Shown here piece by piece: positions 10,967-32,901 of a stretch of DNA of 38,155 nucleotides; the first letter of the stretch is position 1; every line of letters begins with the position of its first letter. A model generated the notes under the pieces. It was not told where the DNA came from, did no database searches, and worked only from the letters and a program-made list of their open reading frames with translations. The translations under genes were made by a program, and so were the position numbers. The stretch is from Flavobacteriaceae bacterium (GTDB lineage: Bacteria > Bacteroidota > Bacteroidia > Flavobacteriales > Flavobacteriaceae): positions 1 to 38,155 of the forward strand of contig JABDNM010000230.1 in assembly GCA_013043825.1 (NCBI GenBank). Reading direction: 5' to 3'.

Positions 10967-11362
10967 ATGGCAGAAAGCAACAGGCAAAAAAAAATCGCAG
11001 CGGTTCTTCAAAAAGACCTCGCATCCGAACTCCAGAACGAATTTCGGAAATCGGGGCAATCGGGTATTATTGTTTCGGTCTCCAAAGTTTCCGTAACCGT
11101 AGATCTCTCACTCGCGAAAGTGTACACCAGTATTTTCCCGGCCGACAAGGCTGACATCATTGTAAAGGAGCTCAATGTCATCAAACCAAAGATCAAGCAT
11201 CGAATCGCTCAACTAACCAAGAATCAATTGAGGAGAATGCCAGACCTTCAATTTTACAATGACGATTCATTGGAATACATAAATCGAATTGAAAAGGCTG
11301 TAAAGGGAACAGACGATCCTATCAAAGACCCAAACCTGCTGGATAAAAGGAAAAAGAAATAG
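10967..11362 (+). CDS. rbfA: ribosome-binding factor A
   Basis: A cytoplasmic assembly factor that binds the 30S subunit and helps 16S rRNA 5'-end maturation. The 131-aa protein shows the single KH-type domain of the family: an N-terminal RQKKIAAVLQKDLASELQ helix, the strand region VSKVSVTVDLSLAKVYTSIFP, and the signature KPKIKHRIAQLTKNQLRRMPDLQFYNDDSLEYINRIEK. The C-terminal Lys-rich tail is typical. The permease gene starts 3 bases after its stop, so the two are co-transcribed. Confidence 0.95.
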   Translation: MAESNRQKKIAAVLQKDLASELQNEFRKSGQSGIIVSVSKVSVTVDLSLAKVYTSIFPADKADIIVKELNVIKPKIKHRIAQLTKNQLRRMPDLQFYNDDSLEYINRIEKAVKGTDDPIKDPNLLDKRKKK

Positions 11363-11365
11363 CAC

Positions 11366-12571
11366 TTGAGGTATCCGCTATATATCGCCAAACGTTATCT
11401 GTTCTCCAAAAGCAACAAGAATGCGGTTAATATCATTTCGGGTATAGCCGTGGTTGCGGTTATCATTGGATCCATGTCCCTCTTCGTGGTCCTTTCCGGA
11501 TTTGCAGGTCTAAAAGATTTTGCCCTGCAATTTACCAATGTCTTTGACAGTGACCTTCAAATTACACCTGCCCAAGGTAAAACCCTAACCTTGAATGCCG
11601 CTCAATGGGAACGTCTCAAGAAACTAGATCAGGTGGAGGCCGTTTCTCAAATAGTGGAAGAGCGGGTTTTCCTTCAGTATGATGGGAAGAATATGGTGGC
11701 GTCTATTAAAGGAGTGGATGCCAATTACCCAAAGATTACTCCTGTAGATAGCCTGTTATTCACTGGCGACTGGTTTGCGCCCAATATGGACGAGGTTGTA
11801 ACCGGTTTCGGAATTTCGAATAAACTTTCCTTGCCGCCACGCGATTATGGCAAATTATTGGAGATCTACGTTCCAAAACCAGGTACAGGCCAATTGAATA
11901 TGATCGACCCGGCTTCAGCTTTTACAAAGCGCAGGGTAGTAGCTTCGGGGGTATACGAGATCAATGAAGAGTTGAATAGTAAATATATTTTTTCTGAAGC
12001 AAGTTTTGCCCGTGACTTACTGGGAATCGATTCGACCCAGGTTACTTCGCTGGAGTTCAAGTTAAAACCAGAAGCATCGGCCAATGATATAGCTACTTCC
12101 ATTTCCGAAATTATTTCCGAAGAAATTAACATAAAGACACGCATTCAACAAAACGATGCTTTGTACAAAATGTTGAATTCGGAAAATCTGTTTACTTATT
12201 TGTTTGTGAGTCTCATTGCGGCCATCGCCATTTTCAATCTGGCTGGAACCATTATTATGGTAATACTTGAAAAGCGTGGCAACATTCGTACACTTTATTT
12301 TATGGGGCTCACGATCCAGGAGATCCGGAAGATCTTTTTTTACAACGGAATGCTCATGACTTTAATAGGCGTGAGTGTTGGATTGCTTTTGGGCTCTATC
12401 GCTGTTTTACTTCAAATGGAATTTGGATTTGTGCCCATTACGCCTAACCTGCCCTATCCGGTTAAATATAAACTCTTGAATTTACTGCTGGTTTTTGCCA
12501 CGATCTGTGGCCTGGGCTGGATCGCCGCTAAAATGGCTTCCCTTAGAGTGACCGAAAAGCTCCTTGCGTGA
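11366..12571 (+). CDS. LolC/LolE-like ABC transporter permease
   Basis: A 401-aa integral membrane protein of the MacB/FtsX superfamily with LolC/E-type layout. One N-terminal helix (about residues 22-48, NIISGIAVVAVIIGSMSLFVVL) is followed by a large periplasmic domain (about 50-270) and three C-terminal helices (FTYLFVSLIAAIAIFNLAG; MLMTLIGVSVGLLLGSIAVL; LLNLLLVFATICGLGWIAA). EKRGNIRTLYFMGLTIQEIRKIFFYNG is the coupling-helix segment that contacts the ATPase. LolCE moves lipoproteins to the outer membrane in Proteobacteria; that role here is an inference, and no LolD-like ATPase is adjacent. The start is a TTG, chosen because RYPLYIAKRYLFSKS begins in the usual place. Confidence 0.82.
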   Translation: MRYPLYIAKRYLFSKSNKNAVNIISGIAVVAVIIGSMSLFVVLSGFAGLKDFALQFTNVFDSDLQITPAQGKTLTLNAAQWERLKKLDQVEAVSQIVEERVFLQYDGKNMVASIKGVDANYPKITPVDSLLFTGDWFAPNMDEVVTGFGISNKLSLPPRDYGKLLEIYVPKPGTGQLNMIDPASAFTKRRVVASGVYEINEELNSKYIFSEASFARDLLGIDSTQVTSLEFKLKPEASANDIATSISEIISEEINIKTRIQQNDALYKMLNSENLFTYLFVSLIAAIAIFNLAGTIIMVILEKRGNIRTLYFMGLTIQEIRKIFFYNGMLMTLIGVSVGLLLGSIAVLLQMEFGFVPITPNLPYPVKYKLLNLLLVFATICGLGWIAAKMASLRVTEKLLA

Positions 12572-30554: not shown

Positions 30555-32342
30555 ATGAAAAAAATAATCTGGTTTCTTGCGGTTATAGGATCGTCCTTAT
30601 CGATGTCCGCTCAAAATAGTACAGCCTACTGGCAGCAAAAAGTCGATTACAAGATCGAGATCGACATGGATGTTGAAAGCTGGCAATACAAAGGAAAGCA
30701 ACGGCTTACATACACGAACAATTCTCCCGATACCCTGTATAAGGTGTTCTACCACCTATATTTCAATGCTTTTCAGCCAGGTAGCGAAATGGATGTTCGT
30801 TCAAGGACAGTTTTGGATCCAGATCCGCGTGTAGGAGACCGCATCTCAAAATTATCGCCCTCAGAAATAGGTTACATCAAACCAAACGTGCTCACCCAGG
30901 ACGGACAAAATGTAAAATACGAAGTCGTTGGAACTGTTTTGGAGGTGCTTTTACCTATACCAATCCTGCCGGGAGCAAGTACGCTTTTTGACATGGAATG
31001 GGATGCACAAGTTCCTGTTCAGATTAGACGAAGCGGCCGCAACAACCGAGAAGGTGTTGCTCTTTCTATGGCCCAGTGGTTTCCAAAACTTGCAGAATAT
31101 GATTTCCAGGGATGGCATGCCGATCCCTATATTTACAGGGAATTTTATGGTGTTTGGGGCGATTATGACGTTCAAATTTCCATCGACAAATCCTATGTGG
31201 TTGGAGGTACGGGCTATTTGCAAGGTGAACCAGTATCCCGGCGAGGTAAAAAGACCTGGCGCTTCGTGGCCCCCAATGTACACGACTTCACCTGGGCCGC
31301 CGATCCGGATTATATACACGATACCTATCCCGGGCCTAATGGTGTAGAGTTAAATTTTTATTACAAGAACGATCCCGAGATCATTGATAATTGGAAAAGG
31401 CTACAGCCGCAAACCGCGGAAGTGATGGCTTATTTCAACAAGCATATTGGCAATTATCCATACAAGCAATATTCTGTGATACAGGCCGGTGATGGTGGAA
31501 TGGAATACGGCATGTGTACCTTTATAACCGGGACACGAAAATATGGCAGTCTTTTAGGGGTGACTGTTCACGAATTAGCCCACAGTTGGTTTCATTTCCT
31601 ATTGGCGAACAATGAGGGAAAACACCCCTGGATGGATGAAGGTTTTGCAGAATATATAGGTGAATTAGCCCTGGATGCGGTCACTGGAAAGGTGCGTGAA
31701 AACCCGTTCAGTGGGCAGTATCGCGGGTATCGAATGCTGGCCGGGAGTGGTGCGGAAGAGCCGCAGACCACCCATGCAGACCGGTTCCACAGCAACCGCG
31801 CTTCGGGACTGGCGGCCTATCATAAGGGCGGGGTATTTGTTGCCCAGTTGGGATATGTGATGGGGCAGGAAAATCTTCAGGAAACCATCAAACGTTATTT
31901 TAAAGAATGGGCTTTTAAGCACCCAACACCTAACGATTTCATTCGAGTAGCTGAAAAGGTTTCCGGATTGGAGCTAGATTGGTATTTGATGGATTGGACC
32001 CAGACTACCAAAACAATCGACTATTCAATTTCCAATGTGAGTGCCGGCGATAGCGCAATCATCTCCCTGGAGCGAATTGGAGCCATGGCCATGCCCATCG
32101 ATCTTTTGGTGAGCTACGCCGATGGGACAGAAGAGCTTTTCTATATCCCATTACAAATGATGCGTGGCGAAAAACCTGATGAAGGCGCTAAACGCACAGT
32201 AGTTAAGGATTGGGCCTGGGCCTCTCCCGTCTATGACCTTCAGGTTCCTGTTGGTAAAAAGGTAAAGCGTGTTGAGATCGATCCTTCAGGCCTAATGGCC
32301 GATATAAATGAAGACAATAATATTTACAGTGTAGATCTATAG
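30555..32342 (+). CDS. M1-family metallopeptidase (aminopeptidase N-like)
   Basis: A 595-aa zinc peptidase with a signal peptide (IIWFLAVIGSSLSMSAQ, cleavage after SAQ). The N-terminal beta-sheet domain (YKIEIDMDVESWQYKGKQRLTY) leads to the gluzincin catalytic domain. HELAHSWFH gives the HExxH with His339, Glu340 and His343; the third ligand is Glu362 in WMDEGFAEY, 18 residues later, exact M1 spacing. The usual GxMEN substrate loop is GGMEYG here. The C-terminal part is short (DWYLMDWTQTTKTIDY), so it lacks the long helical domain of full aminopeptidase N. It probably works in the periplasm, perhaps trimming peptides released by the S8 enzyme encoded 2 bases upstream, though that link is an inference. 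Confidence 0.92.
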   Translation: MKKIIWFLAVIGSSLSMSAQNSTAYWQQKVDYKIEIDMDVESWQYKGKQRLTYTNNSPDTLYKVFYHLYFNAFQPGSEMDVRSRTVLDPDPRVGDRISKLSPSEIGYIKPNVLTQDGQNVKYEVVGTVLEVLLPIPILPGASTLFDMEWDAQVPVQIRRSGRNNREGVALSMAQWFPKLAEYDFQGWHADPYIYREFYGVWGDYDVQISIDKSYVVGGTGYLQGEPVSRRGKKTWRFVAPNVHDFTWAADPDYIHDTYPGPNGVELNFYYKNDPEIIDNWKRLQPQTAEVMAYFNKHIGNYPYKQYSVIQAGDGGMEYGMCTFITGTRKYGSLLGVTVHELAHSWFHFLLANNEGKHPWMDEGFAEYIGELALDAVTGKVRENPFSGQYRGYRMLAGSGAEEPQTTHADRFHSNRASGLAAYHKGGVFVAQLGYVMGQENLQETIKRYFKEWAFKHPTPNDFIRVAEKVSGLELDWYLMDWTQTTKTIDYSISNVSAGDSAIISLERIGAMAMPIDLLVSYADGTEELFYIPLQMMRGEKPDEGAKRTVVKDWAWASPVYDLQVPVGKKVKRVEIDPSGLMADINEDNNIYSVDL

Positions 32343-32365: not shown

Positions 32366-32391
32366 AACCCTGCTTCACTAGAAGCGGGGTT
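32366..32391 (+). terminator. hairpin terminator after the M1 peptidase gene
   Basis: AACCCTGCTTC (32366-32376) pairs with GAAGCGGGGTT (32381-32391) over 11 bp, one being a G-T wobble, around a four-base loop. It lies 24 bases beyond the stop codon. The following bases are TCTTG, a weak T-run, so termination may be incomplete and the helix may instead belong to the larger structured element downstream. Confidence 0.6.
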
Positions 32392-32397
32392 CTTGCG

Positions 32398-32517
32398 TTA
32401 GGGGTGGAAGCGACATCCCGTGAGGTGAGGTGAACCACCCTGCACTTTGTTTAACACCGCCTCACGGATACAGCGTACGGCCCGCCCCTAAAGTAAAGCT
32501 CAGCTTTTACTTTAGGG
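32398..32517. other. structured intergenic element with competing stems, upstream of rnpA
   Basis: Three stems can be drawn. P1 pairs 32398-32404 (TTAGGGG) with 32485-32491 (CCCCTAA). Inside it, P2 pairs CCGTGAGG (32418-32425) with CCTCACGG (32460-32467), and can be lengthened across a bulged C. A 12-bp perfect stem pairs 32486-32497 with 32506-32517 (CCCTAAAGTAAA with TTTACTTTAGGG). The last stem uses the same bases as the 3' side of P1, so both cannot form at once. The arms (GGAAGCGACATCC and GGATACAGCG) look to me like a dispersed element found in many flavobacterial genomes, but I cannot check this. Strand of action is unclear. RNA, DNA repeat or both remain possible. Confidence 0.55.
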
Positions 32518-32544
32518 AACGCCCAAAAAAGCTACATTTACCGC

Positions 32545-32901
32545 ATGAAGTATCGATTTCAGAAGGAGGAAAAACTAAAAAGCCGCAAGCTGATTGAGCG
32601 ATTATTTTCAGAAGGAAAATCGGTTTCAAGTTTTCCAGTAAAAGTATTCTTTCTTCCGCTGGCTGATGCGCAATTTCATCAGGCAACATTTGCTGTCCCC
32701 AAAAGATCATTCAAGTTGGCCGTGGCCCGTAACCGCATTAAACGGCAGATGCGAGAGGCCTACAGGCTTCATAAACATTTGTTAAGCCACAATAACGGCC
32801 CAAAATTTGCGCTTCTGTTTTTATATATTAGTAAAGATAAACCGCAGTATGCACACGTAATTTCCTCCATGAAGCAACTGCTAAATGAGAAAATAGCATG
32901 A
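32545..32901 (+). CDS. rnpA: ribonuclease P protein component
   Basis: The protein subunit of RNase P, which removes 5' leaders from tRNA precursors together with the catalytic RNA. The 118-aa protein begins FQKEEKLKSRKLIERLFSEGKS and has the family's RNA-binding signature VARNRIKRQMREAYRL (RNR motif), with the 5'-leader-binding face around FAVPKRSFK. Length and basic charge are typical. rpmH is not next to it, unlike in many bacteria. A 7-of-8 TAnnTTTG-like box (TACATTTA, 32533-32540) lies 4 bases before the ATG. The next gene overlaps by 4 bases (ATGA). Confidence 0.95.
   Translation: MKYRFQKEEKLKSRKLIERLFSEGKSVSSFPVKVFFLPLADAQFHQATFAVPKRSFKLAVARNRIKRQMREAYRLHKHLLSHNNGPKFALLFLYISKDKPQYAHVISSMKQLLNEKIA

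Follow-up and report, generated by a model that had tools for sequence, protein, structure and literature searches.

A Flavo-1-type dispersed and folded element between a peptidase gene and rnpA in a Flavobacteriaceae genome

The window, by which we mean the whole analyzed stretch of 38,155 nucleotides from a Flavobacteriaceae bacterium, carries on its forward strand an M1-type aminopeptidase-like gene (30555–32342; TIGR02412, E = 2.6e-15, under the cut-off of that model) followed by rnpA, coding for the RNase P protein (32545–32901; TIGR00188, 43.7 bits, passing the cut-off of 38.35). The gap between them is strongly structured, as a previous sequence-only reading had stated: the segment 32340–32540 (+) folds at −80.2 kcal/mol vs. 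−54.7 kcal/mol for shuffled sequences (z = −5.7), with none of the 200 shuffles as good. The reverse strand of this segment also folds well (z = −3.3, 1 of 200 shuffles), which is expected because stems fold on either strand. Immediately after the peptidase gene there is a separate hairpin with an 11-bp stem (32366–32391, +; −17.4 kcal/mol), followed in the window by a degenerate T-run, GGTTCTT. When the loci were compared by eye, a hairpin and T-run were present at the same site in seven of eight relatives from the genus, with the element present or absent, the exception being G001, where another gene intervenes. Since relatives carry them at the same place, we read 32366–32391 as the terminator of the peptidase gene. 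The 11-bp stem drawn in the sequence-only reading is confirmed, but going by this comparison it probably lies outside the element.

The element extends from 32395 to 32524 (+), from the first base of the P0 helix to the CC that follows its 3′ strand, limits that we took from the match to the covariance model R1 (see below) and from the unit ends observed in other genomes. In the minimum free energy structure, the 5′ strand of P0 (GCGTT, 32395–32399) pairs with its 3′ strand P0′ (AACGC, 32518–32522), forming a closing helix that the sequence-only reading had missed and that covaries between copies. P0 encloses a long arm, whose two sides were delimited by the Rfam and R1 matches, the alignment and covariation: the 5′ side (32401–32418) contains the conserved internal-loop sequence GGG..GGAAGCGACATCC and the 3′ side (32467–32484) reads GATACAGCGTACGGCCCG. 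Particularly, GGG at 32401–32403 pairs with CCC at 32481–32483, and inner pairs lead on to P2, the stem-loop at the arm's tip, which varies freely (32419–32466, from covariation in homologs). Between the arm and P0′ lies the P3 hairpin (32486–32517), in which 32486–32497 pair with 32506–32517. Two helices drawn in the sequence-only reading, the stem 32418–32425/32460–32467 and the 12-bp final hairpin that we call P3, are both predicted and match helices that covary in homologs; its remark that the final hairpin has no T-run before rnpA likewise agrees with the window sequence. A shared 3′ tail of CC and an A-run, recognized by comparing copies, occupies 32523–32530. The element ends 20 nt upstream of rnpA and has the same sense, and outside of it, at 32533–32540 (+), the sequence TACATTTA resembles the −7 box TAnnTTTG, a consensus given in a passage of PMC9723704.

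The sequence-only reading had also included a helix P1 (32398–32404 with 32485–32491), mutually exclusive with the final hairpin, as would be seen in a regulatory leader. Such a helix is possible on paper, but a fold forced to contain P1 is 5.6 kcal/mol less stable (−47.8 vs. −53.4 kcal/mol), and the pair probabilities of P1 are below 0.001. Moreover, in 38 homologs 55.7% of the corresponding cells were paired vs. 56.4% in shuffles, and no measure of covariation was above chance, whereas the conserved P0, arm and P3 are mutually compatible and form together in one fold. The gap is thus truly structured, but the evidence does not support a leader of rnpA with two states, and we rejected the P1 switch.

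To place the element among known families we ran cmscan. At Rfam cut-offs no family was found in the gap; without a cut-off, Flavo-1 (RF01705) matched at 32390–32491, but its 29.6 bits (E = 1.2e-4) fall short of the gathering score, which is 42 bits. The alignment covers all 76 positions of the Rfam model with zero pairs marked as non-standard, and the Flavo-1 arm pairing and internal loops (GAAGCG..AUCC / GGAU..AGCG..) are present in the window copy. Searching nine genomes of the genus with RF01705 gave 65 matches at E ≤ 0.01 in seven of them, 28 of which (counted by hand) were over the cut-off; when the genome of the window was searched in this way, the window copy was not among the matches, so these counts are lower bounds. 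No matches were obtained in 14 control genomes. One of the genus matches (G001:C12:40484–40579) scored 48.9 bits, over the cut-off, directly upstream of rnpA and in the same sense, and the genes on both of its sides match those flanking the window copy. The window copy is thus orthologous to an accepted Flavo-1 match, and Flavo-1, which the sequence-only reading had named as a motif to compare, proved to be the right candidate. Its score keeps the window copy out of the Rfam family; judged by homology it is the same family in an extended form. The ends of the Rfam model are unpaired and lack the P0, P3 and CC tail found here. Table 1 of Weinberg et al. (2010) lists Flavo-1 for the Bacteroidetes as probably an RNA, probably not cis-regulatory and probably not a switch. 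Rfam types it as "Gene; sRNA." No function is given in the literature passages on Flavo-1 that we consulted, and the literature listed for dispersed or REP-like flavobacterial repeats showed nothing about it. Some copies (L223 and L225–L230 in G204, L213 in G138) form a second subtype that starts with (C/T)TAGCCC(T/C)GAT like the Rfam consensus and in which a clear P0 is mostly absent; the Rfam model may rest on this subtype.

We then determined the anatomy of the extended element from a set of 68 copies, comprising the 65 RF01705 matches, two copies from BLAST and the window copy, of which 59 with good arm scores were anchored and nine dropped. P0 was perfectly Watson–Crick in 54 of the 59 copies, while taking the 5′ strand from another copy with a different P0 gave a mean of 5.1 and a maximum of 12 in 500 draws. 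There were 27 different P0 combinations, 22 of them fully Watson–Crick. The distance between the arm and P0′ was at least 14 nt, leaving room for P3, in 49 of the 54 copies with a perfect P0 and was shorter in five. The base after P0′ was C in 56 of 59 copies and a second C followed in 43, in a set chosen partly by that tail. For covariation we used an alignment of 38 genus copies (A1) that leaves the window out, with the three-way structure written from one of its rows; some rows come from related copies and do not count independently, and P3 and P0′ are out of register in part of the rows. Under this structure 88.6% of the cells were paired vs. 68.9% in shuffles, changes on both sides were seen at 26 of 30 pairs, and none of 500 shuffles equaled the alignment in any of five measures. 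Sliding the partner by one to three columns brought pairing down to 37–51%. The internal-loop bases are conserved while the adjoining stems covary freely. As modeled from these data, the single-strand fold is a three-way junction in which P0 closes over the long arm, with its conserved loops, and over P3, which is optional and can be exchanged. Several P2 arms in G001 (L031, L037, L049, L084 and others) contain CTGAGCGGAGTCGAAG-like palindromes, as if a short dispersed hairpin had nested there.

R1 was built from the 38 copies of A1, with the window excluded and the orthologous G001 copy included. It matched the window at 32392–32525 with 78 bits (E = 2.2e-18), and a second match at 11326–11445 (10.1 bits, E = 0.76) was at chance level. 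R1 had 102 matches at E ≤ 0.01 in all nine genomes of the genus (87 at E ≤ 1e-5, counted by hand), among them 42 in G001 and 10 in the window's genome, which bears out the suggestion of the sequence-only reading that this is a dispersed flavobacterial element. As RF01705 gave 65 matches in seven genomes at the same E-value, the extended anatomy provides a more sensitive model than that of Rfam. Of 196 genomes sampled across the order, 66 had a match at E ≤ 1e-5, many of them at or near 18 matches, the largest number of candidates scored per genome. One exact 5′ pattern occurred in at least 118 stretches of GTDB genomes, and all 80 of those listed have Bacteroidota titles, going by name; the same pattern had one match in the viral collection, and no match to the window element was found in the plasmid collection. 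BLAST with the gap sequence recovers few copies because the stems vary. Judged from these matches, the element is a repeat in many Flavobacteriales and some other Bacteroidota genomes.

At the rnpA site itself, the element lies between the upstream gene and rnpA in five of the nine genus genomes (the window's genome G000, G001, G003, G004 and G006) and is absent in the remaining four (G002, G005, G007 and G008). A small tree of RnpA and the peptidase grouped the four empty genomes with a support of 0.73, with the root and the order of gain and loss uncertain. The element probably entered this site once or a few times in the history of the genus. By eye, TAnnTTT stands directly before the rnpA start codon in all nine genomes, both those that carry the element and those that lack it. 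A passage of PMC9723704 describes the −7 box of F. psychrophilum, TAnnTTTG, at −12 to −5. With that spacing, TACATTTA at 32533–32540 would place +1 at 32545, the ATG of rnpA, and the element can be wholly outside the rnpA mRNA. In the rnpA copies of G003, G004 and G006 (L058, L057 and L051) the arm is short and altered, with a TTTGTTTGAGCTC-like sequence, while P3 is kept and the P0 letters are the same or differ by one wobble. A pattern for this "type B" arm had seven matches in six of the nine genomes (two for a control pattern), three of which are these rnpA copies, the other four having two mismatches. We considered a separate second arm family at rnpA and read it instead as a derived form, since R1 still gave 26.4 bits for the G006 copy; those of G003 and G004 were not found by R1.

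Evidence that the element is copied as a unit came from other genomes. We searched G001, G138 and G204 for pairs of copies from the same genome with a perfect P0 and at least 80% identity, setting aside three rRNA-linked copies, and obtained 11 pairs with unrelated flanks, seven of them from G204 and not independent. Within pairs, the base that opens P0 was always identical (1.0), whereas identity was 0.45 one base and 0.09 two bases before it and averaged about 0.3 further 5′. On the 3′ side of P0′ it stayed at 0.64 to 1.0 for five bases (CC, then A-rich) before dropping. Near-identical copies with unrelated flanks and sharp ends indicate that what is copied starts with P0 and stops at about CCAAA on the far side of P0′. 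By BLAST the window copy has no near-identical partner in its own genome, so that unit copying was established for the family and not for this copy. We obtained neither a strain-level empty site nor a target duplication and saw no parent transposon or mobilizing enzyme, with Y1 transposases as the only enzymes searched for; these results count against the reading that we favor below. A Y1 transposase (PF01797) occurs in two of the nine genus genomes and is absent from G001, the one with the most copies. In the wider set it was present in 11 of 12 element-rich genomes vs. three of eight genomes without an element match, a suggestive comparison but one confounded by kinship. We inspected 24 Y1 loci, namely both genus matches and 22 of the 54 from the wider set (two from genomes without a match), in part by a rough word scan, and a convincing flanking element was found at none; one weak partial match lay in locus L237 (17.5 bits, E = 0.0046). 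Mobilization by RAYT/Y1 enzymes is therefore not supported.

Once in place, copies can persist. In twelve groups, copies from different species have one or more flanking genes in common, on the same side and strand, though in some groups on one side only. Their neighbors include genes for thioredoxin, an SRP54-type GTPase (presumably ftsY), homocysteine methyltransferase, PAPS reductase, a class II tRNA synthetase with TGS and SAD domains, an ATP synthase alpha/beta subunit, ribosomal protein L19 and GlmS, that is, housekeeping loci with no apparent common theme. The ftsY locus has four different P0 helices in five genomes, all of them complementary, a diversity that could stem from conversion between copies or from re-insertion just as readily as from paired point mutations. 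In a second genus we examined a metH-like locus, with homocysteine methyltransferase on one side and pterin- and B12-binding domains on the other. A full element was found there in 28 of 30 fetched loci, including that of the query, with L400 lacking it and L401 carrying a truncated one; the 30 are the best-ranked matches, in a ranking that favors loci carrying the element. All 26 aligned copies (two of the 28 were left out) have the same P0 (GCGTG/CACGC) and the same tail, CCCAA. Pairwise identity averages 0.73 within the element, against 0.54 for the 130 nt that follow and 0.46 (ungapped) for the 40 nt before it. Retention above the adjoining spacer suggests a host-side function or conversion and not a neutral repeat. 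Within a very similar element, the copies of related species at this locus (L375–L404) carry whole alternative P3 hairpins (CCCGGAGGG, CCGAAGG, TTCGCCGCGGCGAA and others), a pattern of modular hairpin exchange in which P2 also appears as whole alternative hairpins. L392, in G317, has the metH-locus element in two tandem copies about 670 nt apart.

The orientation of the copies bears on how they might act. Among 108 copies (68 from the genus and 20 each from G138 and G204), 102 had two neighbors that could be called, by ORF length only, so that rRNA genes were missed: 29 lay between genes both in sense, 36 between genes both antisense, 24 between convergent and 13 between divergent genes. Only 42 of the 102 were in sense to the following gene, and the neighbors were unrelated, which is not the consistent position of a leader. 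This mixed orientation agrees with Table 1 of Weinberg et al. (2010) and with a transcriptome passage on F. psychrophilum, in which Flavo-1 hits are indistinctly sense or antisense to transcribed regions and many lie outside them (PMC9723704). Three rRNA operons of G204 (L215, L216 and L218) each have a Flavo-1 copy in sense just after the 5S rRNA, all over the Rfam cut-off; from this position the three would be transcribed. In G138 the 25 copies fall in long same-strand runs, mostly + from about 0.5 to 2.2 Mb and mostly − from 2.3 Mb, that do not track GC skew. This looked like replication polarity, which we rejected, as 32 of 62 copies (23 of 37 in G204 and nine of 25 in G138) are co-oriented with the leading strand, with replichore ends guessed from GC skew in 20 windows per genome. 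As to the folded strand, the 30 pairs of A1 contain 39 G-T vs. 24 A-C cells (103 and 94 in shuffles), and at least one such cell occurs at 17 and 16 pairs, respectively. The G-T to A-C ratios were 6:1 (P0), 17:10 (P2) and 27:11 (P3, the best of twelve offsets) in the anchored set, and 4:4, 2:0 and 4:3 in 29 of the 40 copies from G138 and G204. These counts lean weakly toward the given strand as the one that folds and cannot separate RNA from single-stranded DNA.

Homology, fold, covariation, high copy number, unit copying in other genomes and persistence at orthologous sites were all observed. The reading that we favor, with moderate confidence, is that the window holds a divergent Flavo-1-type dispersed element that is copied or read by some factor. 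The element would be non-autonomous; its folded strand, as single-stranded DNA or RNA, would be recognized by a Bacteroidota factor when the unit is copied, and the fold would then be kept by selection and/or conversion between copies. It would have no role for rnpA, and would stand at this site as a resident repeat between the peptidase terminator and a promoter-like box, not as a switch. The invariant P0 and tail at the metH-like locus, the retention there and the sense copies after 5S rRNA count against this reading.

Retention above background at the metH-like locus makes a host-side RNA or protein-binding role the main rival. In this case the element would be a structured RNA domain maintained by the host in untranslated regions, whose conserved loops, once transcribed, would be bound by a protein or an RNase and so act in cis on stability or processing, regardless of the gene. 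Conserved internal loops beside freely covarying stems, the surplus of G-T over A-C cells in A1, copies kept at orthologous loci and sense copies behind rRNA operons are all in line with it; nevertheless, the mixed orientation, together with the F. psychrophilum hits that are sense or antisense alike and in many cases outside transcribed regions (PMC9723704), does not fit such a domain, and the G-T excess is weak when counted by pairs. We regard it as unlikely. A DNA-level element, such as a nucleoid protein site, a supercoil buffer or an insulator between transcription units, would suit copies that are intergenic and show no clear preference in orientation, the present one lying after a terminator-like hairpin and before a promoter-like box. 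However, a double-stranded site would have no need for strand-specific loops or for a 5-bp helix that covaries and spans about 100 nt, and replication polarity is absent, which leaves this explanation improbable. We find it very improbable that each copy is an independent small RNA gene, despite the Rfam type and the entry as probably RNA and not cis-regulatory in Table 1 of Weinberg et al. (2010), as some genomes hold tens of divergent copies and the final hairpin lacks a T-run. That the element is a leader or attenuator regulating rnpA through competing stems, to which the sense position 20 nt upstream and the drawable alternative pairing had pointed, is hardly credible given a costlier alternative without covariation, the four genus genomes with no element here, a −7-like box that would put +1 at the ATG, and relatives of the element in every orientation beside unrelated genes. 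The extended anatomy also cautions against an annotation of such copies as leaders of the following gene.

We tentatively propose, as a possibility somewhat short of probable, that Flavo-1, instead of being a family of small RNAs, is the inner arm of a folded unit that spreads by itself and is special to the Bacteroidota. This unit would be a three-way junction with a P0 that is free in sequence yet almost always complementary and with swappable hairpins, copied by an enzyme other than a RAYT that reads the single-stranded fold, and would be partly tamed at housekeeping loci. With the extended anatomy, the question shifts from what the small RNA does to what copies the unit and what reads the fold. 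To the listing of Flavo-1 as probably RNA in Table 1 of Weinberg et al. (2010), our analysis adds P0, P3, the ends of the unit and its spread.

Among known systems, REP sequences and their IS200/IS605-like RAYT enzymes are likewise short, folded, intergenic, multi-copy and apparently non-autonomous. They differ in that G001 lacks a Y1 transposase despite its 42 matches and that no inspected Y1 locus has a convincing flanking element. Besides, REP sequences have a simple foot-and-hairpin anatomy, in contrast to the three-way junction of this element. MITEs, ERIC and BOX elements are also dispersed units with complementary ends, but theirs are fixed terminal repeats, whereas the P0 ends vary in sequence and remain complementary. 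At one locus of G002 (L098), a Y1 transposase gene has hairpin repeats like CACCCGTCTGGAGACGGGCGC on both sides, which are REP-like and unlike this element.
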